NCBI GenBank assembly: GCA_018670825.1
Contig: JABHIW010000079.1
Coordinates: 1-51,856, forward strand
Direction of reading: 5' to 3'
DNA from: Candidatus Scalindua sp.
GTDB taxonomy: Bacteria > Planctomycetota > Brocadiia > Brocadiales > Scalinduaceae
Length of the DNA: 51,856 bases
The position numbers were made by a program, and so were the translations under genes. Under the pieces are notes generated by a model. That model searched no databases. It was not told where the DNA came from and saw nothing but the letters and a program-made list of their open reading frames with translations. Numbering within the stretch: the first letter of the stretch is position 1; each line of letters starts with the position of its first letter. Shown piece after piece: positions 5,755-46,381 of the stretch.

Positions 5755-5864
5755 GTAAGTACTCAATAAGCAGATGAGAACCTCCCCTTAATCCCCTCCT
5801 TTGCAAGGAGGGGAAATGGGGTGGTAATAATTTAAAAGTTCTCATCTGCTTATCAAGTACTTAC
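5755..5864. repeat. 110-bp MITE-like element with 27-bp terminal inverted repeats
   Basis: Left end 5755-5781 and right end 5838-5864 are inverted copies matching at 25 of 27 positions (GTAAGTACT..ATAAGCAGATGAGAAC). The interior holds a second, perfect hairpin CCCCTCCTT-TGC-AAGGAGGGG (5793-5813) and a GGGG-rich arm. It has no coding capacity. The nested palindromes suggest a non-autonomous transposable element; no matching transposase ends are visible here. Confidence 0.75.
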
Positions 5865-12701: not shown

Positions 12702-14384
12702 ATGTCATATATAGTTCTCTCGAGAAGATATCGACCAAAATCATTCAGTGAAATTGTCGGGCAAAAACATGTAGTTACTACATTGGTTAACGCACTTCAG
12801 GCAAACCGTGTTGCCCATGCTTATTTGTTTGCCGGCCCTAGAGGGGTTGGCAAGACATCTATGGCAAGGATACTCTCCAAGGCTCTTAATTGTCAAAAAG
12901 GCACTACCGATACCCCCTGCAATAAATGCTCTATATGTAATAGCATTACAAGTGGAAATGGCATTGATGTTCTGGAAATAGACGGGGCTTCCAACCGTGG
13001 CATAGATGAGATACGAAATATCAGGCAGAATGTGGGGTATGCCCCCGCCGCTTCAAGATATAAAATTTACATTATAGATGAGGTGCACATGTTGACGAAG
13101 GAAGCGTTCAATGCAATTTTGAAAACACTAGAGGAGCCTCCTGAACATGTAAAATTTATCTTTGCCACTACATCACCAAGCCGTGTACCTGATACTGTTC
13201 AGTCACGCTGCCAGAGGTTTGATTTTAAAAATATCTCCATACCTGATATTAGTGACAGGCTGGCACAGCTTTGCAAAACAGAGAATATTGCTGCAGAGGA
13301 AGAGGTACTCCAATCCATCGCGAAATATGCCAGGGGAGGATTGAGAGATTCCGAATCAATTTTAGACCAGCTTGCTTCCTTTTGTCATGAAAAAATAACG
13401 TTAAGAGACGTTTACGATATTTTTGGAGTCGTCAGCGAAGAGAAACTCTCAAGTTTAATTAATAGCTTTATTGAAAAAAATCCTGAATCCTCTATAGTAA
13501 TATTTCATGATATCATCGATAGCGGAAAGGATATAGAGGGTTTTATTGACCAATTACTCCTTTATCTCCGCGATTTGCTCCTTGTTTCAGTGCGTAAAAA
13601 GGAACGTGATACTATAGAGACGGTATCAGGAGATATTGATCTCTTAAGAATGCAATCCTCATCATTTTCTCCTGATACTCTGATGTATATGTTTCAGATA
13701 ATTTCTGAAGCTAAAACAAAAACACGGGATTTACTCCAACAGAAGATTTATCTGGAAGTTTTATTTGTAAAACTTGCTACCATGGAAGAATTAAGGCCAT
13801 TAAGCTCCGTTTTAGATAAAATAGAAGGAATGAAAAAGATGTTCGAAGGTAACGAGGGGAATGTAGACAAAGTAGTATCCATAAGAGATGCAGATGTTAG
13901 AGTACCGGTAAAACCTGGGATACCAGAAAAACCTTCTCATGATTATGTCGCTTTGAATAAAAAGGTAAATCCTGATAACAGTTTTGCTGATACCTGGAAA
14001 AAAGTTATGATAGAGATCCTTGCAAAAAAAAAGACAACCTGGGCCCTATTACAGAATGCAAGGGTATTAAACATTGACGATAATGAAGCGATTGTAGAAG
14101 TCCCAAAAAATTACCTTATTCATAAAGAAAGGCTTGAAAAACCTGAAGAAAAGCGGATAATTGACGGTTGTCTGAAAAAAGTAACAGGAAAGAAGATTCG
14201 TGTTAGATTTGTTGTCTCAAAAAATGATATTAAGGTAGTTGATAATAAGAGAAGCAGTCATGGAGTAGTACAAGAAGGAAAAAACAAAAAATCGGATGAT
14301 GATATAAAAAATGAGCCTATGGTAAAGAAAGCTATCGAGTTTTTTGATGGGTCAATTGTTAATGTAAGGGAGGAAAAGGGATGA
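12702..14384 (+). CDS. dnaX: DNA polymerase III subunit gamma/tau
   Basis: 560-aa AAA+ clamp-loader subunit. N-terminal YRPKSFSEIVGQ is followed by Walker A GPRGVGKT (45-52). The zinc-binding cysteines are Cys64, Cys73, Cys76 and Cys79, Walker B is IIDEVHML, and the SRC motif lies in VQSRCQRFDF. Domain III and a C-terminal tau-like part with a lysine-rich linker follow. It overlaps ybaB by 4 bp (ATGA), indicating translational coupling. The ffs-dnaX-ybaB-recR order is the classic one of Bacillus. Confidence 0.95.
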   Translation: MSYIVLSRRYRPKSFSEIVGQKHVVTTLVNALQANRVAHAYLFAGPRGVGKTSMARILSKALNCQKGTTDTPCNKCSICNSITSGNGIDVLEIDGASNRGIDEIRNIRQNVGYAPAASRYKIYIIDEVHMLTKEAFNAILKTLEEPPEHVKFIFATTSPSRVPDTVQSRCQRFDFKNISIPDISDRLAQLCKTENIAAEEEVLQSIAKYARGGLRDSESILDQLASFCHEKITLRDVYDIFGVVSEEKLSSLINSFIEKNPESSIVIFHDIIDSGKDIEGFIDQLLLYLRDLLLVSVRKKERDTIETVSGDIDLLRMQSSSFSPDTLMYMFQIISEAKTKTRDLLQQKIYLEVLFVKLATMEELRPLSSVLDKIEGMKKMFEGNEGNVDKVVSIRDADVRVPVKPGIPEKPSHDYVALNKKVNPDNSFADTWKKVMIEILAKKKTTWALLQNARVLNIDDNEAIVEVPKNYLIHKERLEKPEEKRIIDGCLKKVTGKKIRVRFVVSKNDIKVVDNKRSSHGVVQEGKNKKSDDDIKNEPMVKKAIEFFDGSIVNVREEKG

Positions 14385-14722
14385 AGGGAATGGGTAACAT
14401 GGGCAACATGATGAAGCAAATGCAGAAACAGGCTGCAACCATGCAGAAACAAATGGAAACTATTCAGGCCGACCTTAAAGAGCGTATCATAGAAACAAGT
14501 TCTGGCGGCGGGATGGTAACAGTAAATGTAAATGGAAAGCAGGAGCTTTTATCTATAAAAATTGATAAGGAAGTTGTTGACCCTGAGGATGTCCAAATGT
14601 TAGAAGACCTTATATTAGCTGCAGTATCTCAAGGTATGAAAAAGTCTCAGGAAATGTATCAAGAGGAAATGGGAAAGATGACAGGCGGTATGAACATACC
14701 GGGATTACCAAATATGTTTTAA
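14381..14722 (+). CDS. ybaB: YbaB/EbfC nucleoid-associated protein
   Basis: 113-aa YbaB/EbfC family protein, a homodimeric DNA-binding nucleoid component. An N-terminal Met/Gln-rich helix (MGNMMKQMQKQAATMQKQ) precedes the core SSGGGMVTVNVNGKQELLSI, and the C-terminus ends MTGGMNIPGLPNMF. The GGG turn and the GG.NIPG end are family hallmarks. It is translationally coupled to dnaX. Confidence 0.95.
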   Translation: MKGMGNMGNMMKQMQKQAATMQKQMETIQADLKERIIETSSGGGMVTVNVNGKQELLSIKIDKEVVDPEDVQMLEDLILAAVSQGMKKSQEMYQEEMGKMTGGMNIPGLPNMF

Positions 14723-14739
14723 TAAAACACTATATAAAA

Positions 14740-15018
14740 ATGAAAACGTATCCTCATCGATGTTGAATCTCATGAAAGAACTGGGCAGGATGCCCGGTAT
14801 AGGCCGGGGACAATAATATTCAAGAAGTGATCATTGCCACAAATCCGAATAGGGAAGGCGATGTTACCGCTATGTACATTCATGAACGTTTAGAACCTTT
14901 AGGGATTCAAGTAACACAACTGGCGAGAGGCATGCCATCGGGAAGTTATCTGGAATATGCAAATTCTGCAGTTATTGCCGATGCGATTCATGGTAAAAAA
15001 TTAATGCAAAAAGATTAA
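14740..15018 (+). pseudogene. recR: recR with a large internal deletion
   Basis: The N-terminal RecR segment MLNLMKELGRMPGIG (from ATG 14760, helix-hairpin-helix start) runs into a TAA at 14814-14816. From 14818 another frame reads IQEVIIATNPNREGDVTAMY and then IHERLEPLGIQVTQLARGMP to a stop at 15016-15018, which is the C-terminal half of the RecR Toprim domain. About 110 residues are missing, including the four-cysteine zinc finger and the first Toprim strand, and the junction is out of frame. Functional RecR cannot be made. The position (dnaX-ybaB-recR) confirms identity. Confidence 0.88.
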
Positions 15019-15039: not shown

Positions 15040-16500
15040 ATGAGAATAGATACCGTATTATCACCGCAACTTCGACAACAGATGAAACTGGCACCTCAGG
15101 TGATCCAGTCCATTGAGATACTCCAGCTGCCAATGTTGGCTTTAGTAGAACATGTACAGCAAGAACTGGTGGAGAATCCCGTCTTAGAAGAAGTGACTGA
15201 TGATGAAAAAGATGAACAAAAAACAGATGAGCAAAAAACACTTGATGACACGCTTGCAGAAGGCAAAAACGAGGATGAAGAGAAGGAGGATGAAGAGTTT
15301 AAAAGGCTTGGAGAAATGGCAGATGATTGGGGTGACTACTTTTCTCAAACAAATATAAAAAGAAGTGATGGTGGAGAGGAACGAGATCGTAAACAGGAAG
15401 CATTAGAAAATACTGCCGCAGGATCAATATCACTTCAAGATTACCTTCTTGGACAGTTATCGATTATGGAGCTAGAGGATTCGCTTATGGCTATCTGTGA
15501 AAACATAGTCTTTAGCGTTAATGATATCGGATATCTGGCTTATCCTTTAGAAGAAATTACCGAACCAATGGAAATGCCGGTAAGCATTGAACAAGCGAAT
15601 GAAGCCCTGGCCATTATACAAAGCATGGAACCGCTTGGCGTAGGAGCACGGAACCTGAAAGAATGTCTACTGCTGCAATTAGATACACGAGACTCTGATT
15701 ATAATATCACTAAGGAATTAATCTCAAATCACCTTGAAGATGTTGAAACAAAGAAATATAAACTTATAGCAAAAAAGTTGGGATATAACCTGGAACTTAT
15801 CAGGAAAGTTATAGAATTCATTAAGACGCTGAATCCCAAACCTGGCTCTCTTTTTGGCAACGAACGAATTCCTTATGTAACGCCGGAAGTCAAAGTGGAT
15901 TGTGTGGACGGGAAATATGAAGTCACACTCATAGGAGACCATAATCTTCCACGCATTTATATAAGCTCGTTTTATAAAGACGTGCTTGTTGGTAAAGATC
16001 ATGACCTGAACACAAGGCGCTATATTCGCAAAAAGATCGAATCTGCCAGATGGCTTATAGATGCTATTGAACAGAGAAAAGGAACACTGCACAAAGTGGC
16101 TGTCAAGATAGTAGAAATGCAAACGAAATTTTTTGAAGAAGGCACCCTCGGACTTCGTACTTTAAAGATGCAGGATGTTGCAGATGCTGTAGGGATACAT
16201 GTATCAACGGTAAGCCGTGCTATAGCACATAAATATGCACAAACTCCTAAAGGAATTTTTGAGTTAAAATATTTCTTTACAGGAGGGTTTATGAATGCTG
16301 ATGGTAATATGGAATCGTGGGAAGCAACAAGACAAAAATTGGCAAAAATTGTAAATGAAGAAAACAAATCACACCCCTTAAGCGACGAGGAAATTGCTTC
16401 TAAATTAAGAGAGATGGGTGGTGATATTGCAAGGAGAACAGTAACAAAATATAGAAGAAGCATGAAAATTCCTTCTTCAAGAAAAAGAAGAGAATGTTAA
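15040..16500 (+). CDS. rpoN: RNA polymerase sigma-54 factor
   Basis: 486-aa sigma-54. Region I is Gln/Leu-rich (LSPQLRQQMKLAPQVIQSIE, then ILQLPM). Region II is acidic (about 55-90, DDEKDEQ..EDEEKEDEEF). The core-binding region follows, then the helix-turn-helix (TLKMQDVADAVGIHVSTVSR) and the RpoN box (RRTVTKYRRSMKIPSS) at the C-terminus. It needs AAA+ activators, none of which lie in this window. It begins 21 bp after the broken recR, so it may be transcribed from the dnaX side. Confidence 0.95.
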   Translation: MRIDTVLSPQLRQQMKLAPQVIQSIEILQLPMLALVEHVQQELVENPVLEEVTDDEKDEQKTDEQKTLDDTLAEGKNEDEEKEDEEFKRLGEMADDWGDYFSQTNIKRSDGGEERDRKQEALENTAAGSISLQDYLLGQLSIMELEDSLMAICENIVFSVNDIGYLAYPLEEITEPMEMPVSIEQANEALAIIQSMEPLGVGARNLKECLLLQLDTRDSDYNITKELISNHLEDVETKKYKLIAKKLGYNLELIRKVIEFIKTLNPKPGSLFGNERIPYVTPEVKVDCVDGKYEVTLIGDHNLPRIYISSFYKDVLVGKDHDLNTRRYIRKKIESARWLIDAIEQRKGTLHKVAVKIVEMQTKFFEEGTLGLRTLKMQDVADAVGIHVSTVSRAIAHKYAQTPKGIFELKYFFTGGFMNADGNMESWEATRQKLAKIVNEENKSHPLSDEEIASKLREMGGDIARRTVTKYRRSMKIPSSRKRREC

Positions 16501-40808: not shown

Positions 40809-43262
<2,454 letters not shown>

Positions 43263-43274
43263 TCAAATTCCTTC

Positions 43275-43595
43275 TTAAAAATTTCCTACTCTAAACTTTA
43301 TATCGGATATATATCCTCTTTTAAATTCATTCTGTATAGACGTCAACAACTCCTCTTTTTTGAAAGATGATATATGGTGCAACCATGTTGCTGAATCTAC
43401 CTCTATGTAAAGTACTCCGTTTCTGACGACTCCTACTTCTGTATGTTCTGATATAACCTCACCTGCTACATTTTTCCACTTTTCCCTCAGATTTTTATTT
43501 CGCTTCCCGGCTCTTTTTACTGACAATACTGTATTACTCAACATATCACCCAGCTTCTTAACCTCTATTTCGTTTCCTCTGGATGGTTTCATCAT
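43275..43595 (-). CDS. dciA: DUF721/DciA family protein
   Basis: 106-aa protein of the DUF721 family; DciA members load the replicative helicase in many bacteria lacking DnaC or DnaI. The KH-like domain contains LREKWKNVAGEVISEHTEVG and VLYIEVDSATWLHHISSFKK, both family hallmarks. It overlaps the dnaN stop by 4 bp (43592-43595), consistent with translational coupling. The location beside dnaN and gyrB is common for this family. Confidence 0.85.
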   Translation of the reverse strand: MMKPSRGNEIEVKKLGDMLSNTVLSVKRAGKRNKNLREKWKNVAGEVISEHTEVGVVRNGVLYIEVDSATWLHHISSFKKEELLTSIQNEFKRGYISDIKFRVGNF

Positions 43596-45031: not shown

Positions 45032-46381
45032 TTAATGCTCTTGTTGTTTAATAAGTGTGCTTTCTAATTTTCTTAATGTAGAAGACATATTTCGGTCGAT
45101 AGACTTGAGCTTTTTAATTTTGTCATCTGCATGCATGACAGTTGTATGGTCTCGACCACCCATATAACCTCCTATTTCTCCTAATGATAAATTAGTAAAC
45201 TTTCTTGCCAGGTGCATTGCGATCTGCCTAGGTAATGTAATGGATTTAAGCTTTCTTTTGGAATGAAGCTGAGAAAGCGGGACACCATAATGTTTTGTAA
45301 CAGTATTTAGTATTTTTTCAATACCGATATTATGCTTTTGTTTTGAAAACCCCCTGATTACCTGTTTTACGAGACTTAAGTCTATTTTACTTTCATTCAT
45401 CATCGCGTATCTGTGAATATTTGTGAGCGTTCCTTCAATCTCTCTAATACTTGAAACGACATTATCCGCCAGGTAACAAGCAACTTCGTAAGAGATTTCC
45501 ATATTTAGTAAAGCAGTTTTTTTTTGAATTATAGCAACACTGGTTTCAAAGCCGGGAGGATCTATTCTGGTTATCAATCCCCATCTGAATCTTGAAATAA
45601 GACGTTCTTCTATTGTTGGTATTTCTTCCGGAGGACAGTCGCTGGATAATACTATTTGTTTTTGACGTGTATAAAGCGCGTTAAATGTATGGAAAAATTC
45701 TTCTCTGGTACTCTGAGAGTTTGCCAGAAAATGTACATCGTCTATTAATAGAACATCAATCTGTCTATATTTATTTCTAAAACTGTCCCAATCGCCAGTT
45801 TTTATGGTAGAAATATAATGATTTACAAAACTCTCACATGGTAAGTATAGAACCTTGTGCCCACTTTCTTGTAGACGTAATAATATTGCATGAAGTAAGT
45901 GTGTTTTTCCTAAACCAACAGAACCATGGATAAACAATGGATTGTACGCAGTACCTGGTGATTCAGAAACGGCGAGAGCTGCTGCATGTGCCAGGCGATT
46001 GCAAGGTCCTACCAAAAAATTATTAAAGTTGTAATTTTTATTTATGTAAGAAGTGCTATCTACACTGGACGAAGAAGAACGGTTTTGAACATCATTTATT
46101 TCAGGTTCTAATGAACCGTTGTCATCAACAATAAATTTTACTTTGCGATTAGATATAGAAGCTTCTTCTAAGGACAATGTAACAACATCCATATAGTTGT
46201 TTTCTATCCATTCTCTACAGAACGAATTCGGAGTATGAATATATATTTCATTTGCATCGAGTTTGACTAAGCCAAGACTTGAAAACCATGTTGTAAATTG
46301 TTGTGGAGTAACTTTTTCTTTAATTTTGGCTTGGATAAGTTTCCATGTTTTCTTTTCGCTGGTAGATAGATATTGGTTCAT
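45032..46381 (-). CDS. dnaA: chromosomal replication initiator DnaA
   Basis: 449-aa initiator. Domain I (WKLIQAKIKEKVTPQQFTTW) is followed by a short polar linker with a Ser/Asn-rich stretch. The AAA+ domain shows FLVGPCNRLAHAAALAV, Walker A GSVGLGKTHLLHAI, Walker B LLIDDVHFL and the box VII arginine finger in SRFRWGL. Domain IV carries the DnaA signature PRQIAMHLARKFTNLSLGEI followed by GRDHTTVMHA. Complete. Confidence 0.97.
   Translation of the reverse strand: MNQYLSTSEKKTWKLIQAKIKEKVTPQQFTTWFSSLGLVKLDANEIYIHTPNSFCREWIENNYMDVVTLSLEEASISNRKVKFIVDDNGSLEPEINDVQNRSSSSSVDSTSYINKNYNFNNFLVGPCNRLAHAAALAVSESPGTAYNPLFIHGSVGLGKTHLLHAILLRLQESGHKVLYLPCESFVNHYISTIKTGDWDSFRNKYRQIDVLLIDDVHFLANSQSTREEFFHTFNALYTRQKQIVLSSDCPPEEIPTIEERLISRFRWGLITRIDPPGFETSVAIIQKKTALLNMEISYEVACYLADNVVSSIREIEGTLTNIHRYAMMNESKIDLSLVKQVIRGFSKQKHNIGIEKILNTVTKHYGVPLSQLHSKRKLKSITLPRQIAMHLARKFTNLSLGEIGGYMGGRDHTTVMHADDKIKKLKSIDRNMSSTLRKLESTLIKQQEH

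Follow-up and report, generated by a model that had tools for sequence, protein, structure and literature searches.

Positions 14740 to 15018 of the window, i.e. the whole stretch of 51,856 nucleotides that was analysed (contig C26), hold what is left of a recR gene. The contig belongs to a Candidatus Scalindua genome of 4.45 Mb (G000; 178 contigs, 93.5% complete, 4.8% contaminated). The remnant is the third of four consecutive genes, dnaX, ybaB, recR and rpoN, all on the + strand. This bears out the dnaX-ybaB-recR order described in an earlier reading made from the letters alone (hereafter the sequence-only reading), and adds rpoN downstream. The features of the locus are:

12702..14384, + strand: dnaX, upstream neighbour of the recR remnant, intact
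14381..14722, + strand: ybaB/ebfC, upstream neighbour of the recR remnant, intact
14740..14802, + strand: recR 5' remnant, first ~21 ancestral codons, with a frame-shifting 1-nt deletion (from the frame and the alignment)
14803..14807, + strand: junction of a 329-nt internal deletion, within a short GCC motif (from the alignment, by eye)
14808..15018, + strand: recR 3' remnant, C-terminal ~70 residues with the rear half of Toprim and the original stop codon (from profiles and the alignment)
15040..16500, + strand: rpoN (sigma-54), downstream neighbour of the recR remnant, intact

The remnant measures 279 nt, whereas recR of a relative in which the gene is intact (G010) has 609 nt. In the alignment the net loss of 330 nt comes from the internal deletion of 329 nt plus a single missing nt around codon 6-7. 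The frame opened at 14740 reads MKTYPHRC and then meets a stop; the middle stretch, MLNLMKELGRMPGIGRGQ, is in a different frame, and the end, NNIQEVIIATNP...KD, returns to the frame of the 14740 start. Because the net loss is divisible by three, the two extreme ends share a common frame and the middle piece alone is shifted. The statement of the sequence-only reading that the two halves lie in different frames thus holds for the middle piece and not for the extreme ends. By eye, the relatives carry the GCC motif at both ends of the deletion, so the 329-nt loss is as would be expected for a short-homology deletion.

In the alignment with the relatives, the remnant has neither the Cys4 zinc finger nor the front of Toprim, in agreement with the loss of about 110 residues, zinc finger and first Toprim strand included, that had been described from the letters alone. 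The Toprim_4 profile matches the remnant at positions 47-85 of 85 (32.8 bits), and the 63-codon frame of the 3' part taken alone scores 23.7 bits, under the cut-off of 25. TIGR00615 matches positions 133-195 of 196 with 59 bits for the whole remnant and 53.7 bits for its 3' frame, the cut-off being 162.55. Compared with RecR as defined by this family, the recombination mediator of the RecFOR pathway, the remnant is alike in its place after dnaX-ybaB, in its residual sequence and in the rear half of Toprim. It differs in being 330 nt short, frameshifted and well below the family cut-off, and nowhere are a Cys4 zinc finger and a complete Toprim found in one frame. It is not a functional RecR: the recR of G000 is a pseudogene and truly broken. 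The second recR that had been thought possible was not found in the G000 assembly, where the TIGR00615 profile search (93.5% completeness) matched the remnant only. Toprim_4 matched the remnant and one further open frame of 604 aa, which from its length is taken to be DnaG.

We refer to the genus as Scalindua-like since the closest DnaX among the best 80 loci is that of ‘Candidatus Scalindua sediminis’ (67% identity). The sample of the genus comprises 13 genomes, G000 included, and the recR site is readable in 11 of them, G003 and G006 being omitted because contig ends interrupt it. The comparison of the locus in related genomes, which the sequence-only reading had proposed, shows five intact sites out of 11 and six that are broken or gone, with several types of lesion. 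TIGR00615 finds a full-length recR in G001, G002, G009, G010 and G011, pieces in G000 and G004, and none in the six others. In G005, G007, G008 and G012 a single contig carries both dnaX and rpoN, separated by nothing but ybaB and a recR scar. In G005 and G008 the scar retains a little of each gene end, and its junction is common to the two genomes. G004 lacks a different part of the gene in the alignment, i.e. most of its front; its dnaX match (C135) holds one TAA stop. At the S. sediminis locus a 206-codon open frame with a RecR-like start lies at the recR site. Over the 39 genomes surveyed, 29 have a TIGR00615 match.

Two further observations concern the distribution of recR. The recR of G002 is at dS 0.90 from that of G009 and 0.91 from that of G010, and its recO is nearer to G009 (dS 0.57); from these distances an exchange of recR within the genus appears possible. 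In two genomes of the same order and another family (G019 and G021; 5.9 and 7.6 Mb respectively, 93% complete) neither recR nor recO was found, and PD-(D/E)XK matches were nil in G019 and weak in G021. A further loss of RecOR within the order is possible in these two cases.

The recO site is flanked by ybeY on one side and by a gene for a TPR protein on the other. When the TPR gene served as anchor, the site could be read in 12 of the 13 genomes (not in G008). Profile and protein searches detect an intact recO in five of the 13 (G001, G002, G003, G009 and G011) and pieces in G000, G004 and G010. At the level of the sites, recO is intact at 5/12 and broken at 7/12 (G000, G004, G005, G006, G007, G010 and G012), the six genomes besides G000 carrying scars between ybeY and the same TPR gene. 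The degree of decay is very unequal. In G000 almost the whole gene is kept, with three indels and no stop codon within the original frame; it appears on C119 as two overlapping pieces in different frames and not as an intact recO. In G004 codons 1-74, approximately, and the final 16 are left. G010, where the gene is largely deleted, has a few start codons and fragments downstream of about codon 140. Some 22 C-terminal codons can still be recognised in G006 and G007, and almost nothing is left in G005 and G012.

These relatives also bear on the quality of the assembly. An assembly or binning error hiding an intact recR in the true genome, an explanation already raised in the sequence-only reading, could be favoured by the state of the assembly (178 contigs, 93.5% completeness, 4.8% contamination). 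But recR is broken at 6/11 and recO at 7/12 readable sites, in several different ways; the breakpoints vary and the two flanks lie together on one contig. Moreover there are no recR pieces elsewhere in the G000 assembly, and it is unlikely that coincident errors would have put indels into recO as well as recR of this one genome. We therefore regard an error as very improbable.

The substitutions in the remnants inform on the age of the lesions. Over 90 codons, the G000 remnants differ from the intact recR of G010 by 18 synonymous and 7 nonsynonymous changes (omega 0.085), and omega is 0.048-0.072 relative to the four other intact copies. Pairs of intact recR give 0.058-0.097, leaving out three G010 pairs with saturated or undefined dS; the recR of G010 itself is constrained (0.065 relative to G002). 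For the recO of G000 omega is 0.10-0.15 relative to the five intact copies, for 0.071-0.174 between intact pairs. Several of these dS are near or beyond saturation, and the values for the scars of G005, G006, G007 and G012 were discarded for poor alignment. Thus neither recR nor recO of G000 bears signs of long neutral drift and both decays look recent, as the sequence-only reading had proposed for recR. In G004 the recO piece has 2 synonymous and 7 nonsynonymous changes and the recR piece 6 and 4 respectively. Selection looks more relaxed on recO, which would be compatible with recO decaying first, but the two pieces do not differ significantly (Fisher p 0.17).

The predominance of synonymous differences from G010, together with the open frame of 63 codons from GTG at 14827, could also be explained if the 3' remnant coded for a small functional protein keeping part of the Toprim fold. 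Such a protein would have neither the N-terminal part nor the zinc finger nor the Toprim front, and in G005, G007, G008 and G012 nearly all of the corresponding region is deleted in the alignment. A low omega is in any case expected after a recent inactivation, and we hardly give credence to a retained small protein.

Both sites can be read in 10 genomes, whose joint states were assigned by inspection of recO and recR: both genes are intact in four, both broken in five, recO only is broken in one (G010) and recR only in none. Fisher's test gives p 0.048 for this distribution, kinship being ignored. Three genomes were omitted from this count: G003 (recO intact, recR unreadable), G006 (recO broken, recR unreadable) and G008 (recR broken, recO unreadable). 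G010 is the sole genome in the intermediate state, with recO largely deleted and recR intact. G003, 82% complete, has an intact recO and no recR match, its recR site falling between contigs; it could be a counterexample in which recR was lost and recO kept.

A tree was built from up to four proteins, the outgroup being placed by DnaX alone, G006 by the TPR protein alone and G003 by RecA and the TPR protein. G000, G005, G006, G007, G008, G010 and G012 form one clade (100%). The other group contains G001, G002, G003, G004, G009 and G011 with a support of 68, or 65 when G003 and G006 are dropped. In the clade of the window recO is broken at all six readable sites and recR at five of six, the exception being G010. 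Outside it, G004 has lost parts of both recO and recR and is the sister of the intact G002 (100% support); its loss is separate from those in the window's clade. We thus claim that recR was lost at least twice in the genus. The base of the window's clade has a low support (53/46, and 52/41 in a second tree), so the number of independent losses within it is uncertain. A first recO lesion shared by this clade was considered and rejected: two of the three indels of G000 fall in the part retained by G010 and are absent from it, the third lying within the part that G010 has lost. The lack of a common indel in the shared part suggests more than one recO event in the clade.

The third component, RecF, was sought by profile in G000 and 20 relatives. 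None of the 21 genomes has a match over the cut-off of 172 bits, which 9 of the 14 controls exceed. Weak partial matches occur in all 21, the best at 40.8 bits, and one of those of G000 is RecN. In many bacteria recF adjoins dnaN, as stated in the portion of Rocha et al. 2005 used here (PMC1193525). The corresponding region of the window is organised as follows:

45032..46381, - strand: dnaA
43592..44704, - strand: dnaN, followed by dciA
43275..43595, - strand: dciA (PF05258), with a 4-nt overlap with dnaN
40809..43250, - strand: gyrB

The order is dnaA-dnaN-dciA-gyrB, and the interval from dnaN to gyrB holds neither recF nor any trace of it; dciA overlaps dnaN by 4 nt, leaving no room for the gene. 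As far as sampled, RecF appears to be missing in the genus, unless it exists in a very divergent form. With recO a pseudogene in G000 and no RecF over the cut-off, the loss of the pathway that the sequence-only reading had envisaged is supported. In this same region the sign of the GC skew switches near dnaA (between 44000 and 48000), which suggests that the replication origin is close.

Other recombination genes are retained in G000: recA, addA, addB, recN (intact) and dprA. The addA and addB genes are neighbours and encode proteins of 1212 and 1047 aa in which Pfam recognises UvrD, PDDEXK_1 and ADDB_N; they are thus adjacent and carry the helicase and PD-(D/E)XK nuclease domains of AddAB, a DUF559 frame standing between them. 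Their best matches are the Gram-positive-type profiles TIGR02785 and TIGR02773, with scores under the cut-offs (444.6 of 707.65 and 327.7 of 903.7 bits respectively). Across the genus, recA exceeds the cut-off in all but one of the 13 genomes (the exception, G006, is 77% complete), and DprA is found in 12 of 13, being absent from G003 and partial in G002. Ten of the 13 have both addA and addB, either whole or split over contigs. G003 has the end of addB only, and profile and DNA searches detected neither gene in G005 (86% complete) and G008 (79% complete). For these two the best addAB DNA matches, among the matches listed, are short repeat-like stretches, and the only PDDEXK_1 match of G005 is in a frame of 264 aa. 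Given the completeness of both assemblies, the absence of addAB from G005 and G008 may or may not be a true loss.

Some particularities of the addAB loci can be added. G009 has two addAB-like pairs (C57 and C74), of which the second is truncated where its contig begins. In G010 (C28) addB and addA are about 35 kb apart and a frame that we take to be transposase-like lies near addB. The DUF559 frame (PF04480) between addA and addB of G000 (L234:6529-7048) is flanked by copies of a palindrome-like repeat of ~37 bp, also present elsewhere in at least 11 of the 13 genomes; frame and flanking repeats look like a small mobile cassette. One core copy of this repeat lies in the window at 5793-5813, as two overlapping matches, one per strand and each with 1 mismatch; the expected number of such matches is 0.

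The presence of AddAB, DprA and RecN in G000 leads to consider that a newly acquired mediator, or presynaptic complex, took the place of RecOR, an idea also put forward from the letters alone. However AddAB and DprA exist as well in relatives with intact recO and recR (G001, G002, G009 and G011) and therefore look ancestral, and no AddAB was seen in G005, where recO and recR are both broken, nor in G008, where recR is broken and the recO site was not read. No replacement emerged from the search among AddAB and DprA, and we hold it to be unlikely.

An adaptation of RecA itself was considered in an alignment of 13 proteins, 12 from the genus (G006 missing) and one from G013 of the same family. 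The residues in question are those that we take to correspond to V37 and E38 of E. coli RecA. The first is V in all 13; the second is A in G008 and P in the 12 others, among them G005, the sister of G008. Thus no change at these positions follows the loss of RecOR across the members concerned, G008 being the single exception. The acidic tail of E. coli RecA has a role in the context of RecA loading; none of the 13 proteins has a long acidic tail, those of genomes with intact RecOR included, and this character does not track the loss either.

Taken as a whole, we consider it very likely that the recR pseudogene is one step in a stepwise and repeated loss of the RecOR mediator pathway in this Scalindua-like anammox genus, part of which thus appears to be giving up the standard means of loading the recombinase RecA. 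Its order, its cause and the continuation of recombination are what we infer. RecF being already absent, RecO would be the sole known partner of RecR. Once recO was inactivated, RecR would be without function, selection on recR would lapse, and deletions would then remove the gene. This order of partner loss would explain why recO alone is broken in one genome and recR alone in 0/10. RecR interacts with RecF or RecO, and in the part of the survey of Rocha et al. 2005 referred to here (PMC1193525) every genome that has RecO or RecF also has RecR, which fits recO going first. Recombination at double-strand breaks would continue through AddAB and RecA, the latter nucleating spontaneously or with AddAB itself or DprA as its loader. 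DprA has been proposed as a third RecA loader, for transformation, in the section of the work cited (PMC4287498). Compared with the cooperation of AddAB and RecOR in Bacillus and Thermus, G000 has kept an AddAB-type helicase-nuclease and RecA, whereas its RecOR is gone.

Incomplete RecFOR sets are already known from the presynaptic gene losses surveyed by Rocha et al. 2005, with RecR more widely retained than RecF and RecO, according to the portion cited (PMC1193525). Here, by contrast, the loss is seen while still going on inside a single genus whose genomes measure about 2 to 5 Mb, and recO as well as recR occurs in intact, intermediate and erased forms. Among the matches listed, titles and abstract starts do not name a loss of recR or recO in anammox bacteria. 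The kind of event is known; its repetition, in stages, within one genus is the interesting part.

A further reading, which we put forward as speculative and rather doubtful, is that the genus recombines without RecF, RecO and RecR and that AddAB or DprA would serve as its general RecA loader, G005 and G008 perhaps using only DprA or a self-loading RecA. In any case, close relatives that differ in RecOR, some very recently, form a natural comparison set to address what loads RecA without RecOR and in which order the RecOR pathway falls apart. They are anammox bacteria, which are important for the loss of nitrogen from the ocean.
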